DNA from: a virus
Reading direction: 5' to 3' (one strand)
Length of the DNA: 21,426 nt
Virus record (IMG/VR): IMGVR_UViG_3300021964_000659
Coordinates: 1-21,426 of that record
Shown here: piece after piece, positions 452 through 10,290 of the stretch
How positions within the stretch are numbered: position 1 is the first letter of the stretch
Layout of the letters: every line of letters starts with the position of its first letter
Program-made: the position numbers and the translations under genes
Notes under the pieces: generated by a model
Told to the model about the DNA's origin: nothing
What the model saw: the letters and a program-made list of their open reading frames with translations, nothing else
Database searches by the model: none

Positions 452-1023
452 AATTTGTTTTGCTCCTCGTTAAGTGAACCACCTAAAGATCCTTTAAGTT
501 TGGTTGCTCCATCGGCAGCATCAATAAGACCACCGTACATATTTAAAATACCTTTACCAATCATATTTACAGTATTTTCCGAAAATATTTTTGTACTTAC
601 TGTTGAACTGACATCGATGATTTGAGATTTGATAATAACTTTTTCATTGGAATCAATGGTGATGACACCATTTTCACCATCAGGTCCAGATGCAATTAAA
701 TCAATATTAACACCTTCGATTCTCACTCTACCACTGGGTGCCCGAAGTATAAGGTCACCACTTACTGCTTCTACATATACACCTGGTTGATCTTTTGGTG
801 CATTATCACCTGCTCTTACTTGAAAGGAACCAGGAGAACGACAAATCGTTCCATACTTTCTATGAGGTTCACCAGATGAATCTAACGTAATATAATGATT
901 ATTGGATGCACCATTTCTTAGCATCACTGCAGATTGAACATTATCTTGAGTGAGATGTCCAAATTTTATTTCACCTTCTGCCGTTCCATATCTAACAGTA
1001 TGATAATTTTTAAGTTGTGCCAT
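448..1023 (-). CDS. Beta-helical baseplate spike-like protein (detached gp5 C-terminal needle type)
   Basis: 191 aa from the ATG at 1023, chosen because it forms TAATG with the stop of the preceding hub gene; an alternative ATG 18 nt upstream would add only six residues. The middle (about residues 70-165) is built of short alternating hydrophobic/polar strands such as GVYVEAVSGDLILRAPSG and VRIEGVNIDLIASG, then KVIIKSQIIDVSSTVSTKIF. This is the look of a VgrG/gp5-type beta-helix or needle. T4 gp5 carries such a needle after its lysozyme domain; here the needle-like segment is a separate protein directly after the OB-fold hub gene. Role inferred: central spike that contacts the envelope first. 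The C-terminus is polar and disordered (GSLNEEQNKL). A generic structural beta protein is the alternative. Confidence 0.6.
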   Translation of the reverse strand: MAQLKNYHTVRYGTAEGEIKFGHLTQDNVQSAVMLRNGASNNHYITLDSSGEPHRKYGTICRSPGSFQVRAGDNAPKDQPGVYVEAVSGDLILRAPSGRVRIEGVNIDLIASGPDGENGVITIDSNEKVIIKSQIIDVSSTVSTKIFSENTVNMIGKGILNMYGGLIDAADGATKLKGSLGGSLNEEQNKL

Positions 1024-3392
1024 TAAAATTTGCCCACACAATCAATTACAGTAACAACCTTATCTTGCCCCATTGGTTCTTTCAGTTTATCTGATCCAAC
1101 TCTATCTATACAAAGTTTTGGTATCAATACTGCATTATAACCTGTATCAGACTGAATGTAAAGTTGTGGGAATTCAGTAAATCCTTCACCACCTTCAGTA
1201 ACTTTAATAGATGCGACTCTTCCTTGTTGGTCAAACTTAGGTTCTGCAGAGGCACCATTGTCTGGTCTTATCACAATCTTATCACCTTCAGTGTAATTTA
1301 TACCTGCATCAACTATATTGATTTCACAAAGATAAAGTATTGCAGGATAAGAACCAGAAGAAGATGATGGATAGACTCCAGAGAATCTAGAATAATCTGG
1401 TTTAGGAGAAGTAAACACTCCTGGTCTAGTGACTATTACTTCATCACCACCACAGATTTCTTCACCACCACCCTGATCACCTTCCTGTGGTTCTGTGACT
1501 ATACAGACACCAGGAGGAAGAGTAACTTCATCACCAGGGTTTACAACAATAATATTTCCTGGTGGTTTTGGAACATCATAACTACCGTCAGGGTGTTTTA
1601 CAATCGAATCCTCTGGATCTGCCCAAGTATATTCATTTCCACCTCTACTACCATCAGGTGCAGAAAGATATCCAGTACCAGGATCGAGAATGTCAATACC
1701 AGTAACACCAGACTGAATATTTCCATTTTCATCAGTGTAATCTTCAACAATTGGTCTTATTACCGCACCTTTACCTTTTCCACAATTATCAAATACATTA
1801 CCATAAGTCCTTTCTTTATCATATCCAATACCAAAACTTATCATATCGATACCAATAACTTCTCCTGCTGTAGATATAATCAGATTACCTAATGCACCAG
1901 TACCACCAGCACCAAAAAATTCAGCCAAAGGTGGACCACAAAGTTGTGGACCAATATTACAAGCATCTAATCCCAATATATCACTTGTATTAAAATTAAA
2001 TTCAGGATTAGTAATATCTTCTGCAACACTCTGGGCATTAGCTGCAATATTTTTTGCCTTATTGATAATAGAGTCTATGTCACCTTTACTAATTTGTTTT
2101 GCACCACTTAGAATATTCCATTCATTTACAGATGAGCACTCAGGTTTTTCTTCACATGATAAAAATGATAAGAGATCAGTAAGGAGACCTAAAACATCAC
2201 CAACAATAGATGCTACCTGACCTACAAGTGATGTGATACCACTTAAAGCATTATTAATTTCTCTTGAAATCTCACCAATAATTTGACCAAGCGTATTGGC
2301 AACTAAATTTTCAATCACACATTTAGCACCATTGATAATTTTATTTGCAGCATCTTGTAGAAATGCACCTATTTGACCGATAAGTAATTTTATAAATTTT
2401 CTAAACAGACATGCAATTAAATCATTGAGAGTATCAACGGCTTTTTTTAATTCAGGTCTTTCATTTGGAAACAATAAGAAATAGGTATCCTTCATAATAT
2501 TATTCACTTTATTAGTAACAAATTTTTGAATTTGTTTAAATACCCATTTAATTCCCTCAGAAGCTTTCTCTGTTGCCCAACTTAGTTTTTCATTAATAAA
2601 ATTTTGTAGTTCATTAACATTACCAGTAATAGCTTTTGAATAATTATAGATTGACTTCTGTGCTTTTTGAATCTCTACAATAGTATTCTGGATATCTTTT
2701 TGAATTTTACCTAAAGGAATTGGTTCACAATCAGATGGTTGAGCAAAAGGTTGACTTTGTTCTTGGGCACTAGCCTCAGATGCTGCATCCTTTTTTGCAT
2801 TAGACTGTGTTGCTGACTCATTGACGGTAGGATTGTTTGGTTCTTTAGTTTTACTACCTTGTGAGTTTGTTTTACCTTCGGTTTGGGCACCAGTCTGTCT
2901 AACAATCTCACCACCCTTATCGACATTGAACGAAGTATATGCTACCTTATCACTTTCTGTATAACCACTGAATGGGACAAATCTTGCATTTGGTATATTT
3001 TTACTTACTGCGGCATATTCATTATTACCGAGAATACCCATGATGACTGGCATCTGAGCATCTTCACCATCCATGAAGAAGCCAAATACAAAATCACCTT
3101 GAGATATATTTGCAGTTTGTGATCCAGATCTACCACCACCTCCTGCGGTGGTAGGATACATGACATATGCCCAAGGCAGTTCATCATCAGGTATTTCATC
3201 AATATTAGCCGTGTGGTATCCCATGATACGGACACGATATCTCTCACCAAAACCTTTTATATCATTATTTGTTCCTATAGGAGATCCAGGTTTATTATCT
3301 TTCCATGTGGATTCTGGGGCAATCTGACCTAACCACCAGATAAACCCATCTCTACCTACAAAATATCTTTTAAAGAGTCCTTGTTCTATCAT
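1023..3392 (-). CDS. gp5: gp5-like baseplate hub protein, OB-fold domain without lysozyme
   Basis: 789 aa. Residues about 47-121 (GERYRVRIMGYHT, DELPWAYVMYP, GDFVFGFFMDGEDAQMPVIMGIL) match the OB-fold entry domain of T4 gp5 and related hub proteins. A polar Gln/Ser/Lys linker (165-220) leads to a long amphipathic, partly hydrophobic helical region (225-410). The rest (about 500-789) contains beta segments ending in G-x-G-[YF], such as MISFGIGY, IDILDPGTGY and IKVTEGGEGF, repeated around a Pro/Gly-rich spacer. I see nothing like the T4 lysozyme domain; T4 gp5 is 575 aa and carries one. The start ATG overlaps the upstream gp27-like stop as ATGA. Role: central hub below the tube, with gp27. The helical and repeat regions are of unknown function. 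Confidence 0.75.
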   Translation of the reverse strand: MIEQGLFKRYFVGRDGFIWWLGQIAPESTWKDNKPGSPIGTNNDIKGFGERYRVRIMGYHTANIDEIPDDELPWAYVMYPTTAGGGGRSGSQTANISQGDFVFGFFMDGEDAQMPVIMGILGNNEYAAVSKNIPNARFVPFSGYTESDKVAYTSFNVDKGGEIVRQTGAQTEGKTNSQGSKTKEPNNPTVNESATQSNAKKDAASEASAQEQSQPFAQPSDCEPIPLGKIQKDIQNTIVEIQKAQKSIYNYSKAITGNVNELQNFINEKLSWATEKASEGIKWVFKQIQKFVTNKVNNIMKDTYFLLFPNERPELKKAVDTLNDLIACLFRKFIKLLIGQIGAFLQDAANKIINGAKCVIENLVANTLGQIIGEISREINNALSGITSLVGQVASIVGDVLGLLTDLLSFLSCEEKPECSSVNEWNILSGAKQISKGDIDSIINKAKNIAANAQSVAEDITNPEFNFNTSDILGLDACNIGPQLCGPPLAEFFGAGGTGALGNLIISTAGEVIGIDMISFGIGYDKERTYGNVFDNCGKGKGAVIRPIVEDYTDENGNIQSGVTGIDILDPGTGYLSAPDGSRGGNEYTWADPEDSIVKHPDGSYDVPKPPGNIIVVNPGDEVTLPPGVCIVTEPQEGDQGGGEEICGGDEVIVTRPGVFTSPKPDYSRFSGVYPSSSSGSYPAILYLCEINIVDAGINYTEGDKIVIRPDNGASAEPKFDQQGRVASIKVTEGGEGFTEFPQLYIQSDTGYNAVLIPKLCIDRVGSDKLKEPMGQDKVVTVIDCVGKF

Positions 3393-4702
3393 TTAAATCC
3401 CGTTTTCTTACCAAATGAATCTCTAACCAGAGCGAGTCTTGTAAAAGTTTCTCTTGGAGTAACTCTGTGACATACACTTGCTACCATATATATACCCCCT
3501 GTCTGTGGGTTTTTCTCTTTAACTCTATCTCCAGTAACCTCAGGGAAATCACATTGAATAATGTCACCTGCTTTAATACTAAAATCTGCTGCAATAGTCA
3601 CATTTGTTTTAACAGTAAACATTTGATTATATCTCATCACAGACTGTGCCATTGTGTTCTCGGCATCATAATTTGGAGAAGTTGAATTCTTCTTCCATTG
3701 TTCTAACTGTTCGTTACCTGTCCCATCAGGCATAGCACCAACATCAAATACATGACTCATCAATCTTGTTGGAGTTTCGGTAAATTCTTTTGCAACTAAG
3801 TCACCACCAAAGTATTTTCCTGCTTTACCAATGTTGTCAGGGTTGTACTTGAATTCTTTAACATAATAATCCATAGAGAATGGATTAAAGTAGATTGCTC
3901 TACTATTATATGTTCCAAGAGTGAGATTTTGTTTGAGGTCTATGTCACTATCAATAGAATAGTCAAGTATATTCCCATCATATCCCACTGGAGGTTCTCC
4001 AGTATTATTGAACATATATTTTTTGACTGGTTCTTCTTCAAATATTTTATCAATAGACCTAAAGTTGAATCCGTCTCTGGTTTGATAAAAAAGAAACCCA
4101 GCTCTTGACCCTACATCTTTATCTGGTACTGCCTTAGATGCTAGCCAAGTACAGGTATAAAATGGTTTTCTATCATTCCCTATGAAATTATAAGTGAGTG
4201 AGGTGTTATCTACTTGTTCAATTTTTACATCACCAAGAGAATTAAGTATTTCCTTTACATGATCAGATATTTTTCCTTCATATCTTTTTATTACTCTTTG
4301 TTGTTCATTTGCAAAATATTCCTTTGATGCAAAATCAACAAAGAATACATCCTTTGATGTACCAGAGTCAGTATCTCTTACTCTATTGACATACAAACCT
4401 TTCATTGGTTTGAATGTAAGTTTGTTTTCATTATTATCTTCAATGACTATATCAGTTCTCTCCCCACCTCTGATTGGTAAAGCATCTAACACACCTTTCG
4501 ATGATTTAATCGCACCACCATCTGATTCATAACCACTATCAACAATAACTGCTGTTGCTGTGACATTATTTGATAAGACACTCTCGTAGTATCTAAATTC
4601 AACTACACCACCAGATAAGTCAATCGCTTTGTCAGACTGATTTGATGATATTTTGAACTTCTGAATATTACCAGGAGATGTTGGAGCGTTTTGTGATGGC
4701 AT
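3389..4702 (-). CDS. gp27: gp27-like baseplate hub protein
   Basis: 437 aa. In phages of this type the protein between the tape-measure-type genes and the gp5-type hub gene forms the gp27/gpD ring connecting tube and spike. Features that fit are the N-terminal beta region, the mid-part FVDFASKEYFANEQQRVIKR, and the C-terminal strand block ITIAADFSIKAGDIIQCDFPE followed by GGIYMVASVCHRVTPRETFT, which resembles the second tube-like domain of such hub proteins. Assignment rests on these segments plus synteny with T4 (26-51-27), since gp27 is poorly conserved. The ATG forms TAATG with the upstream stop, and its own stop overlaps the next start as ATGA, so hub subunits are probably made in linked amounts. 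A generic tail structural protein is the alternative. Confidence 0.6.
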   Translation of the reverse strand: MPSQNAPTSPGNIQKFKISSNQSDKAIDLSGGVVEFRYYESVLSNNVTATAVIVDSGYESDGGAIKSSKGVLDALPIRGGERTDIVIEDNNENKLTFKPMKGLYVNRVRDTDSGTSKDVFFVDFASKEYFANEQQRVIKRYEGKISDHVKEILNSLGDVKIEQVDNTSLTYNFIGNDRKPFYTCTWLASKAVPDKDVGSRAGFLFYQTRDGFNFRSIDKIFEEEPVKKYMFNNTGEPPVGYDGNILDYSIDSDIDLKQNLTLGTYNSRAIYFNPFSMDYYVKEFKYNPDNIGKAGKYFGGDLVAKEFTETPTRLMSHVFDVGAMPDGTGNEQLEQWKKNSTSPNYDAENTMAQSVMRYNQMFTVKTNVTIAADFSIKAGDIIQCDFPEVTGDRVKEKNPQTGGIYMVASVCHRVTPRETFTRLALVRDSFGKKTGFK

Positions 4703-7700
4703 TATCCTTGTTTATATAAGAATCCCATAAGTTGAGATTTATAATAACTATTTAATACCTCTTTTGTAGAAGGACCTCCCATCATAGGAACTCCTCCACC
4801 ACCTCCTCCACCAGGAGTTGTTTGGGATGGTATTGGGAATGGAGTTATTCCGCCACCCTGTGAATAACCAGATTCATATGGAGCACGTCTATCAATACCA
4901 TTTCTTGATTGTGAAGCGGTTTGTTGTGGAGATAAATTTATACTCTGTCCATGTGCCTGACCCACTGGACCAGCAGAATTCAAAATCAGGTGACCAACAT
5001 ATGGTGAAGGATTTCCCATTCCACCATATCTGGTACCATCTTTCTTATTATCAACCTCAAAGTGTAAATGTGGTCCAGTAGAACTACCTCTACCTCTATC
5101 ACCACTTGCTCCACCAGTTTGACCAAGAGGAACACCAGCAGGTATCCTTTGTCCTTTTCTTACAAGTATTTTATTTAAGTGTGCAAGTCTAAATTGTAAT
5201 CCTAATGATGGTGCCCATGCATCAACAACATTTCCGTAACCGTGTCCTGGTGCTCTTCCATGCAATCCTGCAAACACAATTTCAACTTCAACATCCAATG
5301 CAACATATGTTCCCTCTGGTGTTCCAATATCAATACCTCCATGTAGTCTTCCCCATCTTTGACCATATCCAGATGTAACTGGGAAACCACTTACTTTTTG
5401 ACCTTTTTGTGCACCAGTAGTTGCACCTTTCCTTTGTATCATACCAGATACATTTTGTCCTATACTTGCAAGTTGAGCTTGTTGAGCAGATGGTGATGAC
5501 GGAGTGATATTACTAATCATCTGAGATACTTTAGCATAATCTGCACCATCTTTAGCAGTAGCTGACTGACCACCTCTGATGAGTGCTGCATTACTATCAC
5601 CAACTACAATGTCTGGTTTATACTTATTCTTGATTGCTCTGGCACTTGATGGTGTCAAATGAACATAATTACCCAATAAATCGATAGGCGCATAAACACC
5701 ATAGTCAATCCTACAACCCATCTCTGCTGCAGCTGTAGTTACACCCTGATATGGGGCTGTAATAACCACACTACCTTTAGGATTATTCTTAACAACCAGT
5801 TTATCTGATGGGGGTACAACGATAACAGTATAACCCTTGTCCATCAATCCTTTGATAAGTTTTTTGGTCGCGGATACGATGTAAGATTTGTTCCTACCCC
5901 ATTCATTGGTACCATATGCCAAGACAGCAATTTTTTGTTGAGCACTACCAGTCTGTTGTGTTATTGTATTAAAATTAGGAGCATTTCCACTAACTGTTCC
6001 TGTGTAATTCCAATCCCAACCAAAATAATTATTTGGCGCACCAGATTGTCTTATGATTTCTCCCTTTCTCTGATTTCTATATCCTCCACTATAGTTTGTA
6101 AAATCAGTTCTACCACCCAAAAAGTCTTTTGCATTCTTCATTAATGTGGGGTTATTAATAACCGCTGCAGTCTTTTCAACTTCTGATGTATTTTTCCATC
6201 CTGCAGCAAGTGCTGCCGATTGAGCATCAACAATATTATACCACTCATCATTGGGTTTACCGTATCCATTTTTTGATCCGTTTGGATAATCCCAAGTGGG
6301 TTGAAATTGTGTTTGTCCAAGAATCAAATCTCTTATATTTTTAGAACTATATGCTCCAGACGCAGCTCTATTATAAAGTGCTTGAACAACATCCGCCCTT
6401 CCTTGATCGTCACCATCCTCTCTTGATGCAATAGCAGCAAGAGTCCAAAAGTCTGAACCTCCTCCAGAAGTTGTTGATGTTGGTGTTGTAACTGTTCCCG
6501 TAGTTCCAGTGGTTCCATTGGTTCCAGATTGGTCTAGATACCCTAATCCCGAAACTATTAATGGCTGACCTGTTGCTGGATCTATCCAAGGTTCTTCCTC
6601 AAGCATTTGTCGCCAGTAAGGCAAATTACTATATTTTCTTTTTGCTGGAACGGGTGGTATTGAACTAAATTTTTTCTTGATAAGTTCATACAGTGCTTTA
6701 CCACCCCAATCACCAATCATACCACCAAGAATGGCGCCTGCTGCTGTCCCTGCAAATGGAAATACTAATGAACCAATACCACCACCGATCCAAGCACCAA
6801 TACCACCACCGACTGCACCTACTACAGCTCTGTCAAGTGGTTCACCAAGTAACATATCAATAAAGATACTGAGAAGACCACCAACAACAGGAACTCTTTT
6901 AAATATATTGCCAATCTTTAAAATACGCTTACCACCTGTTCCAAACAAATTTTTTGCAGTTTGTTTAGATGCCTGTTGTGTTGCTCTATTGGTTGCAGTT
7001 TTTGATGCCGATCGTGATGCTTGTGTAGCAACAGTTCGTCGTCCACCCCCTCTCAGACCCTGTGCAGCACCACTTGCTCCAGCAGAGGCAGCACCACCAG
7101 TAAACTTGGATGTAACATTTTTTATAAAATTAACAAGACCAGAACCTAAACCACCAAATAATCTTTTAGCCTTAGGTACCACCTTTTTCATCAAACTCTT
7201 AAGGCCTGAACCAGCCTTCTTCATTCCTTTCCAAGCGGTATTGAAGATCCCCTTTATAGGACCACCAAAAACACTTGTAATACCAAGTATAACACTCTTT
7301 AATAATTTAAATGGATTGTTAAAATTTTGAGATAAAGTGCTAATTACATTCTCAATTTTATCGTAATTATTGAGAAGAAATAATACTAAACCACCTAGAG
7401 CAATATTCGTTAAAAAATCAAAGATATTGAAATTTTTACCTATAGTTTTTCCTACACCAAGTAATGATGAACCACCTCTTTTCCTTTCTAATTTATCTTC
7501 TTTTTTTCTAGCTTTTTCTTTTTTGTTTTTATTTTTAATTGCCTTGTTTAATTCTTTTTTTGATTTTTTTTCACTCTCAGAAACTTTGACTAACGTCTGT
7601 GCTGTCTTATCAATTTTTTCAAGTTGTTTACTAAGAGATTCAAAAGATACTTTACCAGTTGATTTTGTAGGTGATGAACTTTCCGAGGATTTTTTATATA

Positions 7701-7938
7701 CAGATTTGGGAAGTTTTACAGAAGATACTTTCTTAGCACTAGGTCTGGATTTTGTTTTTTCAGATACCTTTCTACCAATACTTTCAACTTTATTTTTAGA
7801 ACTATATTTTGATTTACCTTTGACAAACTTCTTTGCTGCACCAGAAACAGCTCTCTTAGCTCCTCCTGATACTGCACTTCTGGTGGCACCCTTTGCTATA
7901 CCACCCATCAATCCTCTTGCTAATAATGGGAGTACCAT
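4702..7938 (-). CDS. Large tail protein with glycine zipper, SleB-like, SGNH-like and M23 peptidase domains
   Basis: 1078 aa. Residues 1-165 are very basic with a charged coiled coil; hydrophobic stretches follow at 172-235, then a Gly-zipper segment at about 370-412 (GAVGGGIGAWIGGGIGSLVF). Residues 496-645 resemble SleB/Hydrolase_2 wall hydrolases (ASREDGDDQG with candidate Glu507, then QALYNRAASG and QFQPTWD). Residues 669-808 carry SGNH-type motifs in permuted order: YGTNEW (Asn678), YVHLTP (His760), VVGDSNA (Ser782). Residues 851-985 are an M23/LytM zinc endopeptidase: HGGID (His866, Asp870), LAH (His920), HLHFEV (His957, His959). A Gly-rich tail ends the protein. Start at 7938 has AGGA 6 nt upstream, overlapping the upstream stop. 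Likely tail-tip or tape-measure-like protein that opens the peptidoglycan during infection. Confidence 0.8.
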   Translation of the reverse strand: MVLPLLARGLMGGIAKGATRSAVSGGAKRAVSGAAKKFVKGKSKYSSKNKVESIGRKVSEKTKSRPSAKKVSSVKLPKSVYKKSSESSSPTKSTGKVSFESLSKQLEKIDKTAQTLVKVSESEKKSKKELNKAIKNKNKKEKARKKEDKLERKRGGSSLLGVGKTIGKNFNIFDFLTNIALGGLVLFLLNNYDKIENVISTLSQNFNNPFKLLKSVILGITSVFGGPIKGIFNTAWKGMKKAGSGLKSLMKKVVPKAKRLFGGLGSGLVNFIKNVTSKFTGGAASAGASGAAQGLRGGGRRTVATQASRSASKTATNRATQQASKQTAKNLFGTGGKRILKIGNIFKRVPVVGGLLSIFIDMLLGEPLDRAVVGAVGGGIGAWIGGGIGSLVFPFAGTAAGAILGGMIGDWGGKALYELIKKKFSSIPPVPAKRKYSNLPYWRQMLEEEPWIDPATGQPLIVSGLGYLDQSGTNGTTGTTGTVTTPTSTTSGGGSDFWTLAAIASREDGDDQGRADVVQALYNRAASGAYSSKNIRDLILGQTQFQPTWDYPNGSKNGYGKPNDEWYNIVDAQSAALAAGWKNTSEVEKTAAVINNPTLMKNAKDFLGGRTDFTNYSGGYRNQRKGEIIRQSGAPNNYFGWDWNYTGTVSGNAPNFNTITQQTGSAQQKIAVLAYGTNEWGRNKSYIVSATKKLIKGLMDKGYTVIVVPPSDKLVVKNNPKGSVVITAPYQGVTTAAAEMGCRIDYGVYAPIDLLGNYVHLTPSSARAIKNKYKPDIVVGDSNAALIRGGQSATAKDGADYAKVSQMISNITPSSPSAQQAQLASIGQNVSGMIQRKGATTGAQKGQKVSGFPVTSGYGQRWGRLHGGIDIGTPEGTYVALDVEVEIVFAGLHGRAPGHGYGNVVDAWAPSLGLQFRLAHLNKILVRKGQRIPAGVPLGQTGGASGDRGRGSSTGPHLHFEVDNKKDGTRYGGMGNPSPYVGHLILNSAGPVGQAHGQSINLSPQQTASQSRNGIDRRAPYESGYSQGGGITPFPIPSQTTPGGGGGGGVPMMGGPSTKEVLNSYYKSQLMGFLYKQG

Positions 7939-7941
7939 ATC

Positions 7942-10290
7942 TTATCCTACTATATTATAGATTGATTTGACAACAATGAGATCAAAATTACTTGAGTCTT
8001 CAGCAGAAAATCCTGGAATTTGTTTTTGTGCCGCACTTGCAGCACTATTTACCTGACCTTGTTGTCCTACTGGAACTGGTAACACTGCTGCACCACCTCC
8101 TTGTGATGGCGGTGGACTAATTCTTACATCTACTACTTGTCTTGATACTTGTGCTTGTTGTGGTGATGTACCACCAGGTTGTAAATTCAAACCTCTTGAG
8201 AGAGATTCCTCAAGTGGTTTGGTCAAGGCGTCAAGTTGTTGATTACTTAAACCAGGTCCTCTTAACACCAAATCCTGAAGTAGTGGTGACATATTACCGA
8301 GTTCGATCAAACTAATACCTCTATTTGTTCCAGCTAGACCACCTCTATGTGTTTTACTAAATGCTCCAGCTGTTCTTGCAAAGTCAGCCTCTACGGGGTT
8401 AATAGCATCAGTACCTGGCATGGGTGGAATGACACCACGTCCAGTTCCATAGCCAGACTCTAGTGACGCATCCATGTGGATTTCAATGACTTCATAACCT
8501 TGTTTCTCCAATGTCTTAAGTTTATTTTGTTGTTCTATAAATCCTGCATCAGTGTTAGGTGTTTGATCATGCATGTCTAACAATCTAACAGGAATACTTT
8601 GTCCATATTTAGCCTTTAAGTTTTCAACAGTTCTCCTTGCAAGATCTCTTACTAATTCCATTTCACCAGGAGCTCCAGCTCCAGCAGCGTGACCAGGAAC
8701 AACAATATAACCTTTAGATCCTGCACCACTTCCCAAACCGAAATCTCTAATTGGTGCTGATCCTTGGCCACCAAGACTAACCTGGCCACCACCTTGGAAA
8801 CCTTGAATCTTTCCAAACTTAGGTTTGTTATTTCCACCAGCCATAGCATTTGCTGCCAGAAGATTACCAGCACCAAACATGTCAACAGCCTTTTTACTCA
8901 TCATAATTTCACCAGGTTGAGCAGCAATCAACTGAGTGTCCTTGCCCATACCTTTGATTTGAAGACCAGTCAATTTGTCAATGGCACCACCATCAAAGAG
9001 TGAAAGATTTTTGACATCTATAACCTGACCACCACCTTCTTGTTGTTGTATCCAATTTGGATATTGAATATTTGGAATATTTGGAAGTGCGACTTTAGGT
9101 ATTCTTGGTAGTTTTGGTGTTGGAATACCAGGAAGAACCTTTGCTAATTGTTTAAGAGCCCATTCTATCTCATTAAATGCTGTATTCCATAGACCAATAT
9201 ATGCATTGATAGGTGCAAATACTATATCATTGATAAATTTAATAATCTTGTCATTAATAAAGTCGATTATAAAATTACCAAAGTCAATTAAGGGTTTTAA
9301 ATACTTACCTGGATTTTGAATGATATCAAGAATAAGATTAATAGCTCCACCCAGTAAAACATTCTTAAAGAAGTTTATTATACTATCAAATATATTAGAA
9401 GCTGGTTTTAAAGTTTTTGAAACCTTTTCTGCGCTTTTCTTTTCAGTATCTTCAAGTTTTGCCTCTTTCTTTCTGAATCCCTCAGTCTCTTCCTTCTTAG
9501 TAGCTTCTCTTGCTGCTTGTTTTTCAAGTTCAAGTTTTTGTCGTTCAATTTTTAGAAGTTTATCTAAATTACTATTAATATCGTCTAATGTTTTAGACAA
9601 TGGCAATAATTGTTCTTGAGTATCTTCTTGAATCTCAACCTTTACATTTTCTGGACTACTGGTTTGACCAGCAGATGGTAAAAGTTTTGTGGCCTTAACA
9701 CTTTTAGGTTTTGGTTTTTGTCTTGGTCTTTTACTTACAAAATTTGAAGTTCTTGCCTTTCTTTTATTTTTATTAGCCTGTACTTTAAATGAACCTGATT
9801 GTGTTCTTGCTCTTTTAAATTCATTTTTTAATAATTCATTATCACCCTCTTCTTCTTCTCCCTTTCCACCTCCCATTCTATCGGCAGCCATCTTCTCTTT
9901 CAGAAGACGTTTATAATCCTCATAATCTAATTCTGCTTCATAATCTTCTAAACCAAGAAGTTTTAATATTCTTGGGTCAATATTCTCAGTTTGAGTTTCT
10001 TTTTTATTACCATTTTTTATTTTTTTGATTGCATTATCAACTGCCTTCTTTGACTCTCTCTGTTTCTTTTTCTTTTCTTGTTCGTCTTTCTTTCTTGATT
10101 TCTCTAATTCTTTAAGTAAATTATCTACATTTAAAAAATCGTCTTCTTTTTCTTCTTCATCTCTAATTGCGTTAATAAGAGCGTCAAGTTGATCAGATAC
10201 TTTTCCACCAGAAGCCTTCTTCAACTGTTCGACTTGTCTATCGACAGCTGACTTCTTGTCGGATTTTGACCTTCTGATCCTTTTAGCCAT
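7942..10290 (-). CDS. Tape-measure-like tail protein with amidase_3-type domain
   Basis: 782 aa. Residues 1-295 are highly charged Lys/Glu-rich, predicted coiled coil. Residues 299-385 contain hydrophobic helices starting NIFDSIINFFKNVLLGG, similar to NIFDFLTNIALGG in the neighbouring 1078-aa protein. Residues 432-502 carry a Gly-rich stretch with LIAAQPGEIMMSKKAVDMFG, of a kind I associate with tape-measure and internal tail proteins. Residues about 526-690 show the four zinc/catalytic positions of an N-acetylmuramoyl-L-alanine amidase (amidase_3 type): VPGH (His534), Glu543/545, EIHMDAS (His605) and LIELGNMS (Glu663). A Pro/Gln-rich tail follows. AAGG lies 7 nt before the ATG, which overlaps the stop of the small upstream frame. 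Its place right after gp26 and the frameshift frame is the usual tape-measure position. Role inferred: tail-length or ejected wall-degrading protein. Confidence 0.75.
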   Translation of the reverse strand: MAKRIRRSKSDKKSAVDRQVEQLKKASGGKVSDQLDALINAIRDEEEKEDDFLNVDNLLKELEKSRKKDEQEKKKKQRESKKAVDNAIKKIKNGNKKETQTENIDPRILKLLGLEDYEAELDYEDYKRLLKEKMAADRMGGGKGEEEEGDNELLKNEFKRARTQSGSFKVQANKNKRKARTSNFVSKRPRQKPKPKSVKATKLLPSAGQTSSPENVKVEIQEDTQEQLLPLSKTLDDINSNLDKLLKIERQKLELEKQAAREATKKEETEGFRKKEAKLEDTEKKSAEKVSKTLKPASNIFDSIINFFKNVLLGGAINLILDIIQNPGKYLKPLIDFGNFIIDFINDKIIKFINDIVFAPINAYIGLWNTAFNEIEWALKQLAKVLPGIPTPKLPRIPKVALPNIPNIQYPNWIQQQEGGGQVIDVKNLSLFDGGAIDKLTGLQIKGMGKDTQLIAAQPGEIMMSKKAVDMFGAGNLLAANAMAGGNNKPKFGKIQGFQGGGQVSLGGQGSAPIRDFGLGSGAGSKGYIVVPGHAAGAGAPGEMELVRDLARRTVENLKAKYGQSIPVRLLDMHDQTPNTDAGFIEQQNKLKTLEKQGYEVIEIHMDASLESGYGTGRGVIPPMPGTDAINPVEADFARTAGAFSKTHRGGLAGTNRGISLIELGNMSPLLQDLVLRGPGLSNQQLDALTKPLEESLSRGLNLQPGGTSPQQAQVSRQVVDVRISPPPSQGGGAAVLPVPVGQQGQVNSAASAAQKQIPGFSAEDSSNFDLIVVKSIYNIVG

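Follow-up and report, generated by a model that had tools for sequence, protein, structure and literature searches.

A tail protein of a T4-like cyanophage carries a domain that is very likely a circularly permuted SGNH fold and not a chance string of motifs, and this domain is likely also an active enzyme of that kind. We analyzed a window of 21,426 nucleotides (positions 1 to 21,426 of IMG/VR record IMGVR_UViG_3300021964_000659), a T4-like cyanophage fragment whose gene block recurs in Synechococcus phage S-B05, where most proteins are 48–93% identical. The domain (residues 668–812; 5503..5937, minus strand; delimited by profile limits and AlphaFold2) lies within a 1078-aa baseplate/tail protein (ORF at 4702..7938, minus strand) orthologous to S-B05 protein QCW22918 and its relatives. 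The best explanation, which we hold with good confidence, is a circularly permuted SGNH hydrolase, predicted to act as a virion esterase or deacylase beside Peptidase_M23 and Hydrolase_2-like modules. Motif order, family-wide conservation, similarity to SGNH profiles after rotation, and a confident permuted α/β prediction were all computed directly.

The motifs follow one another along the minus strand in an order that departs from canonical SGNH enzymes. A first strand (669–674) leads into block III, YGTNEW (675–680, with the oxyanion residue Asn678; 5899..5916), followed by a helix (684–700), a second strand (703–708), and a PPS motif (709–711; 5806..5814), both prolines of which are invariant across the family. 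After a further helix (728–739) come Asp753 (5680..5682), the proposed catalytic acid, and, beyond an insertion, block V, YVHLTP (758–763, with His760; 5650..5667), which runs into helix 763–773. Block I, VVGDSNA (778–784, with Ser782; 5587..5607), spans strand 777–780 and the start of helix 782–788, and block II, KDG (796–798, with Gly798; 5545..5553), precedes the last helix (801–809). The sequence-only reading had marked positions 5515–5934, equivalent to residues 669–808 and thus the domain itself, and had described the order III, V, I without any GDS ahead of block III. Both observations were confirmed, the sole GDS of the ORF being residues 780–782, and the addition of block II completes the order as III-V-I-II.

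The first relatives to be located were four contigs of about 90% or more identity. The search path to more distant relatives ran from a weak collinear tblastn match in S-SSM4 (E = 0.1) to ACG-2014d and from there to locus L082 (43% identity). Scanning with a seven-row profile yielded 43 loci; counting S-SSM4 and ACG-2014d, the family comprises 38 distinct domain sequences. Every full-length domain sequence in this family has the blocks in the order III-V-I-II, and none has the canonical order I-II-III-V. The motif order proposed from the window therefore extends to its relatives and exceeds chance, given also that the block I–II part scores above shuffled controls (see below). Across the family, a short, constant linker joins the helix that follows block V to the strand of block I. 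The genes encoding the domain are cyanophage-like baseplate genes, and in nearly all loci tested they adjoin phrog_350 and/or gp26-like and gp5-like genes. Within the proteins, the domain follows Peptidase_M23 in the L082 group and precedes it in the window group, and in L113 it precedes an Amidase_5 match (E = 5.5e-5). A scan of bacterial and archaeal genomes returned no relative, and rotated queries found no close relative in canonical order among phages; a weak full-length match in Pseudomonas phage Y7 (E = 0.3) is a remote canonical SGNH. A tblastn match to Urla was judged a chance hit, the encoded protein having no SGNH motifs, and a DNA pattern for VVGDSNAA returned mostly unrelated ORFs.

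Neither in native nor in rotated order did the window's own domain match an SGNH entry in Pfam, PHROGs, NCBIfam, or PDB sequences, so the link to SGNH runs through its relatives. (A phrog_5321 match obtained on rotation, E = 0.005, was discarded because a third rotation scored equally.) GDSL families were the top Pfam matches of L082, L108, L111, L093, L113, and L119. Each of these six members scored higher against PF13472 once its sequence was rotated to canonical order (L082, 18.0 to 20.0; L108, 22.2 to 24.8; L111, 17.9 to 22.3; L093, 18.1 to 21.3; L113, 17.4 to 21.9; L119, 19.5 to 22.8), and the match of rotated L108 began at profile position 1. Rotated L111 exceeded the PF00657 cut-off (24.4 vs 23.6), and the other scores stayed below curated cut-offs. 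We also used HHalign to compare the family profile, excluding degenerate rows, with a profile built from 13 canonical SGNHs, namely E. coli TesA and 12 sequences of phage or viral-contig origin; these are single-template scores, and weight was placed on shuffle and rotation controls and not on E-values. In native order the alignment scored 41.6 over 102 columns and covered blocks III–V only, and after rotation at residue 774 it scored 54.7 over 133 columns, with each of the four blocks (I, II, III, V) aligned in register. Residue 774, just ahead of the block I strand, was the best of 24 cut points and lies where the permutation predicts. When the block I–II columns of the rotated profile were shuffled, scores averaged 41.7 (max. 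47.1) and 0/120 reached 54.7. A search with a permuted SGNH profile, one of the checks suggested from the sequence, thus came out in favor of the assignment, the rotated family profile matching canonical SGNHs best at the predicted cut.

Structure prediction, another check proposed from the sequence, was in keeping with the permuted reading. AlphaFold2 performed poorly with four near-identical rows (pLDDT 57, pTM 0.59), and fold matches of that model were disregarded; the 32-row alignment gave a pLDDT of 92 and a pTM of 0.87 (protein residue = model residue + 659). The latter model is a confident, Rossmann-like α/β domain that carries the block elements in permuted order, and its element order is that of an SGNH with the block I–II unit moved to the end. 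Searches of the good model against the PDB with Foldseek and VIA-align, aligners that follow chain order, placed no SGNH among the best 50 rows and returned assorted Rossmann-like proteins with Z below 8. In a viral library, the sole match with E below 0.001 was the ACG-2014d relative, and the SGNH esterase of Streptococcus phage 5093 was matched partially, over 93 columns (E = 0.077, prob 0.96).

Residues expected in an SGNH active site are widely retained. Among the 32 aligned rows, Asn678 is kept in 30 (the window's block III reading GTNE), His760 in 29, Ser782 in 30, and Gly798, which aligns to block II of canonical profiles, in 28; Gly780 and Asp781 of the GDS motif are present in 32/32. 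Twelve relatives have DxxH in block V: ten rows with DP[LA]HL, and L108 and L111 with DGYHPT, which together with GTNDW and GDSIA gives these two the complete canonical triad in permuted order. In the window and other members the stretch from the Asp column to the His is lengthened (DLLGNYVHL), and the second residue ahead of the His is usually Tyr or Phe. The catalytic Asp had been suspected to be replaced by Asn757, leaving a dyad or altered catalysis. Asn757 does lie three residues before His760, but it sits in the insertion, and the residue aligned with the DxxH Asp is Asp753, which the insertion places seven residues from His760. Judged by the alignment, Asp753 is the better candidate for the catalytic acid, which is then probably not lost but moved away from His760. 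The longer acid–His loop of the window subgroup could nonetheless reduce activity. In another relative, L105 (domain at 3001–3399), Asn and Ser are kept and the block V His is Gln (FSQLDS), a possible separate and recent inactivation.

Three other explanations were weighed. A Rossmann-like domain outside the SGNH superfamily, resembling SGNH blocks by chance, would fit the failure of the window's domain by itself to match any SGNH model as well as the assorted fold matches in the PDB. It is nevertheless very improbable: against canonical SGNH profiles, the block I–II part alone scores 22.1 (120 column shuffles, mean 8.9, max. 14.7) and the block III–V part alone 41.7 (shuffles, max. 16.9), the rotation optimum falls at the predicted cut, and GDSL families are the best Pfam matches of those relatives whose DGYHP and GDSIA motifs are complete. 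The mosaic nature of tail genes in the central slot could suggest instead that a gene fusion or an assembly error joined two SGNH fragments and only mimics a permutation. We consider this ruled out for practical purposes by the many independent contigs, since the identical order recurs in dozens of them from different samples and in the isolates S-SSM4, S-SSM6b, and ACG-2014d, the block V–block I link is short and constant, and block I precedes block III in no ORF; the lone GDS of S-SSM4 lies just ahead of the first strand.

The remaining explanation accepts the permuted SGNH fold and supposes that the domain of the window phage is a pseudo-enzyme, serving as a glycan binder or structural module. 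In its favor, the S-SSM4 and ACG-2014d relatives have Asn, His, and Ser all replaced, a joint loss that would be expected if these residues act as a set, and the domain of these phages is unlikely to support SGNH catalysis. The four-residue insertion between the acid column and the His in the window subgroup, a difference from the DxxH members, points in the same direction. However, the degenerate members form one separate clade in the tree (support 100/99), so their joint loss is most simply read as one event, and the residues are kept in most of the family. Ser, His, Asn, Gly, and the aligned Asp are all present in the window's domain and also in close relatives with about 90% identity to it. 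We therefore regard a pseudo-enzyme in the window phage as unlikely, although it is the least improbable of the three. The genes of the degenerate members (S-SSM4, L070, 5137–7566; ACG-2014d, L072, 2634–5456) are annotated as 'endolysin' or 'hypothetical protein'.

For a permuted SGNH hydrolase, we infer catalytic activity, a role for Asp753, a substrate, and an action during entry. The chain would begin at the block III strand, pass through block V, and only then form the strand of block I, the GDS nucleophile elbow, and the loop and helix of block II, giving the residue order N-H-S-G in place of S-G-N-H. Once folded, Ser782 would be the nucleophile, paired with His760 and with Asp753 as the acid on a loop longer than usual, and Gly798 and Asn678 would form the oxyanion hole; with the triad added, the resulting active site would be of the ordinary SGNH type. 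Because the protein belongs to the tail tip (baseplate-hub gene block), the domain would be carried with the virion. There it may remove O-acyl groups, most likely O-acetyl, with the peptidoglycan of the cyanobacterial host, or a surface polysaccharide attached to it, as candidate substrates. Such deacylation, alongside the Hydrolase_2-like and M23 modules, would clear away groups that stand in the way of cutting the wall or of contact with the surface at entry.

Canonical SGNH/GDSL enzymes (PF13472 Lipase_GDSL_2 and PF00657 Lipase_GDSL), among them the SGNH domains found in phage tail proteins, are one of the closest known systems. The domain shares with them the four blocks with Ser, Gly, Asn, and His, a predicted α/β fold, and the 133-column match once rotated, and it differs in block order, in the short helix after GDS, and in the lengthened acid–His loop of the window subgroup. 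Permutation itself is compatible with membership in the superfamily: the accepted members AlgJ and AlgX (alginate O-acetyltransferases) and PatB1 (DHHW family) are circularly permuted SGNHs with the order H-S-G-N (PMC9487903, PMC4148444). These proteins have an SGNH active site on a permuted chain and act on polysaccharides, two features that the present domain is proposed to share. Their chains are opened between blocks III and V, whereas the chain described here is opened between blocks II and III (N-H-S-G). Furthermore, their block I reads GTSYS or KDS and their block V DxH or DHHW, in contrast to the GDS (GDSN) and GTN[DE] motifs found here, and AlgX and AlgJ have Tyr in place of the block III Asn that is retained here. 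The window domain thus lacks the features that define the AlgX/AlgJ/DHHW group (H-S-G-N order, DxH or DHHW, a non-GDS block I). One rotated member weakly matched DUF459/PatB, an SGNH peptidoglycan O-acetyltransferase, over blocks I–III (PF04311, E = 0.008), a likeness that hints at a possible peptidoglycan substrate, although PatB is a bacterial periplasmic protein in canonical order. A further close system is the tail 'endolysin' of S-SSM4 and ACG-2014d (phrog_1200-type), which has a homologous domain with identical order and gene slot; unlike the window's domain, this one has its Asn, His, and Ser replaced and is probably not SGNH-catalytic.

In the open-access papers searched, circular permutation of SGNHs is described for one cut point only, that of AlgX, AlgJ, and PatB1, and we found no paper among them on the N-H-S-G order or on permuted SGNHs in phage tails. 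We consider it fairly probable that the domain represents an SGNH lineage of its own, with a distinct permutation (order N-H-S-G, opened between blocks II and III), so far confined to tail-tip proteins of T4-like cyanophages, acting as a virion deacylase for wall entry and decayed to a non-catalytic form in one clade. A second cut point fixed across a phage family, if true, would mean that SGNH chains tolerate a break at another site and still keep their active-site residues. It would also suggest that the surface or wall polymer which cyanophages encounter on entry is acylated. The rearrangement would account for the failure of annotation to recognize the domain, as no family model fires on the window copy and relatives are labelled 'endolysin' or 'hypothetical'. 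The family provides a candidate enzyme together with a ready pseudo-enzyme for comparison.

The proposed position between two wall hydrolases was upheld. Upstream in the protein lies a Hydrolase_2-like (cell wall hydrolase) stretch (residues 511–584; 6187..6408, minus strand) whose PF07486 match is below the Pfam cut-off (E = 3.4e-4, 21.6 bits, cut-off 27), and downstream lies a Peptidase_M23 domain (residues 865–966; 5041..5346, minus strand; PF01551, E = 8.6e-13). Downstream of the 1078-aa ORF, on the same strand, are an adjacent tail protein (3389..4702; phrog_350, E = 1.6e-90), which neighbors the gene of the domain in most loci of the family, and a gp5-like baseplate hub/tail lysozyme protein (1023..3392), identified by phrog_1922 (E = 1.2e-119) and synteny. 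The closest sequenced orthologs (S-B05, RN05-S, and RB11-B) have the N-terminal part and the C-terminal end in common with the window protein, and the domain is absent from them. The central slot (5041–6408 in the window; compared with L005, L006, and L008) appears as a swap site between conserved ends, and its wall-active modules differ among orthologs: S-B05 holds another module, RB11-B a DPBB_1 match (E = 2.4e-4), and ACG-2014f a phage lysozyme (E = 5.6e-15). In the neighboring 782-aa protein (7942–10290), the C-terminal region is variable (PGHAAG...EIHMD... in the window vs GAGHAP/GAGHSP...DLHFDARG in L002/L004); it matches no Pfam model at E < 0.1 and looks amidase-like by eye. The 1078-aa protein itself contains, at residues ~350–420 (approx. 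6680–6890), a long Gly-rich hydrophobic stretch, AVVGAVGGGIGAWIGGGIGSLVFPFAGTAAGAILGGMIGDWGG, that is conserved in the S-B05 orthologs and resembles the membrane-inserting segments of tape-measure proteins, with a PHROG tape-measure match at E = 1.2e-18.
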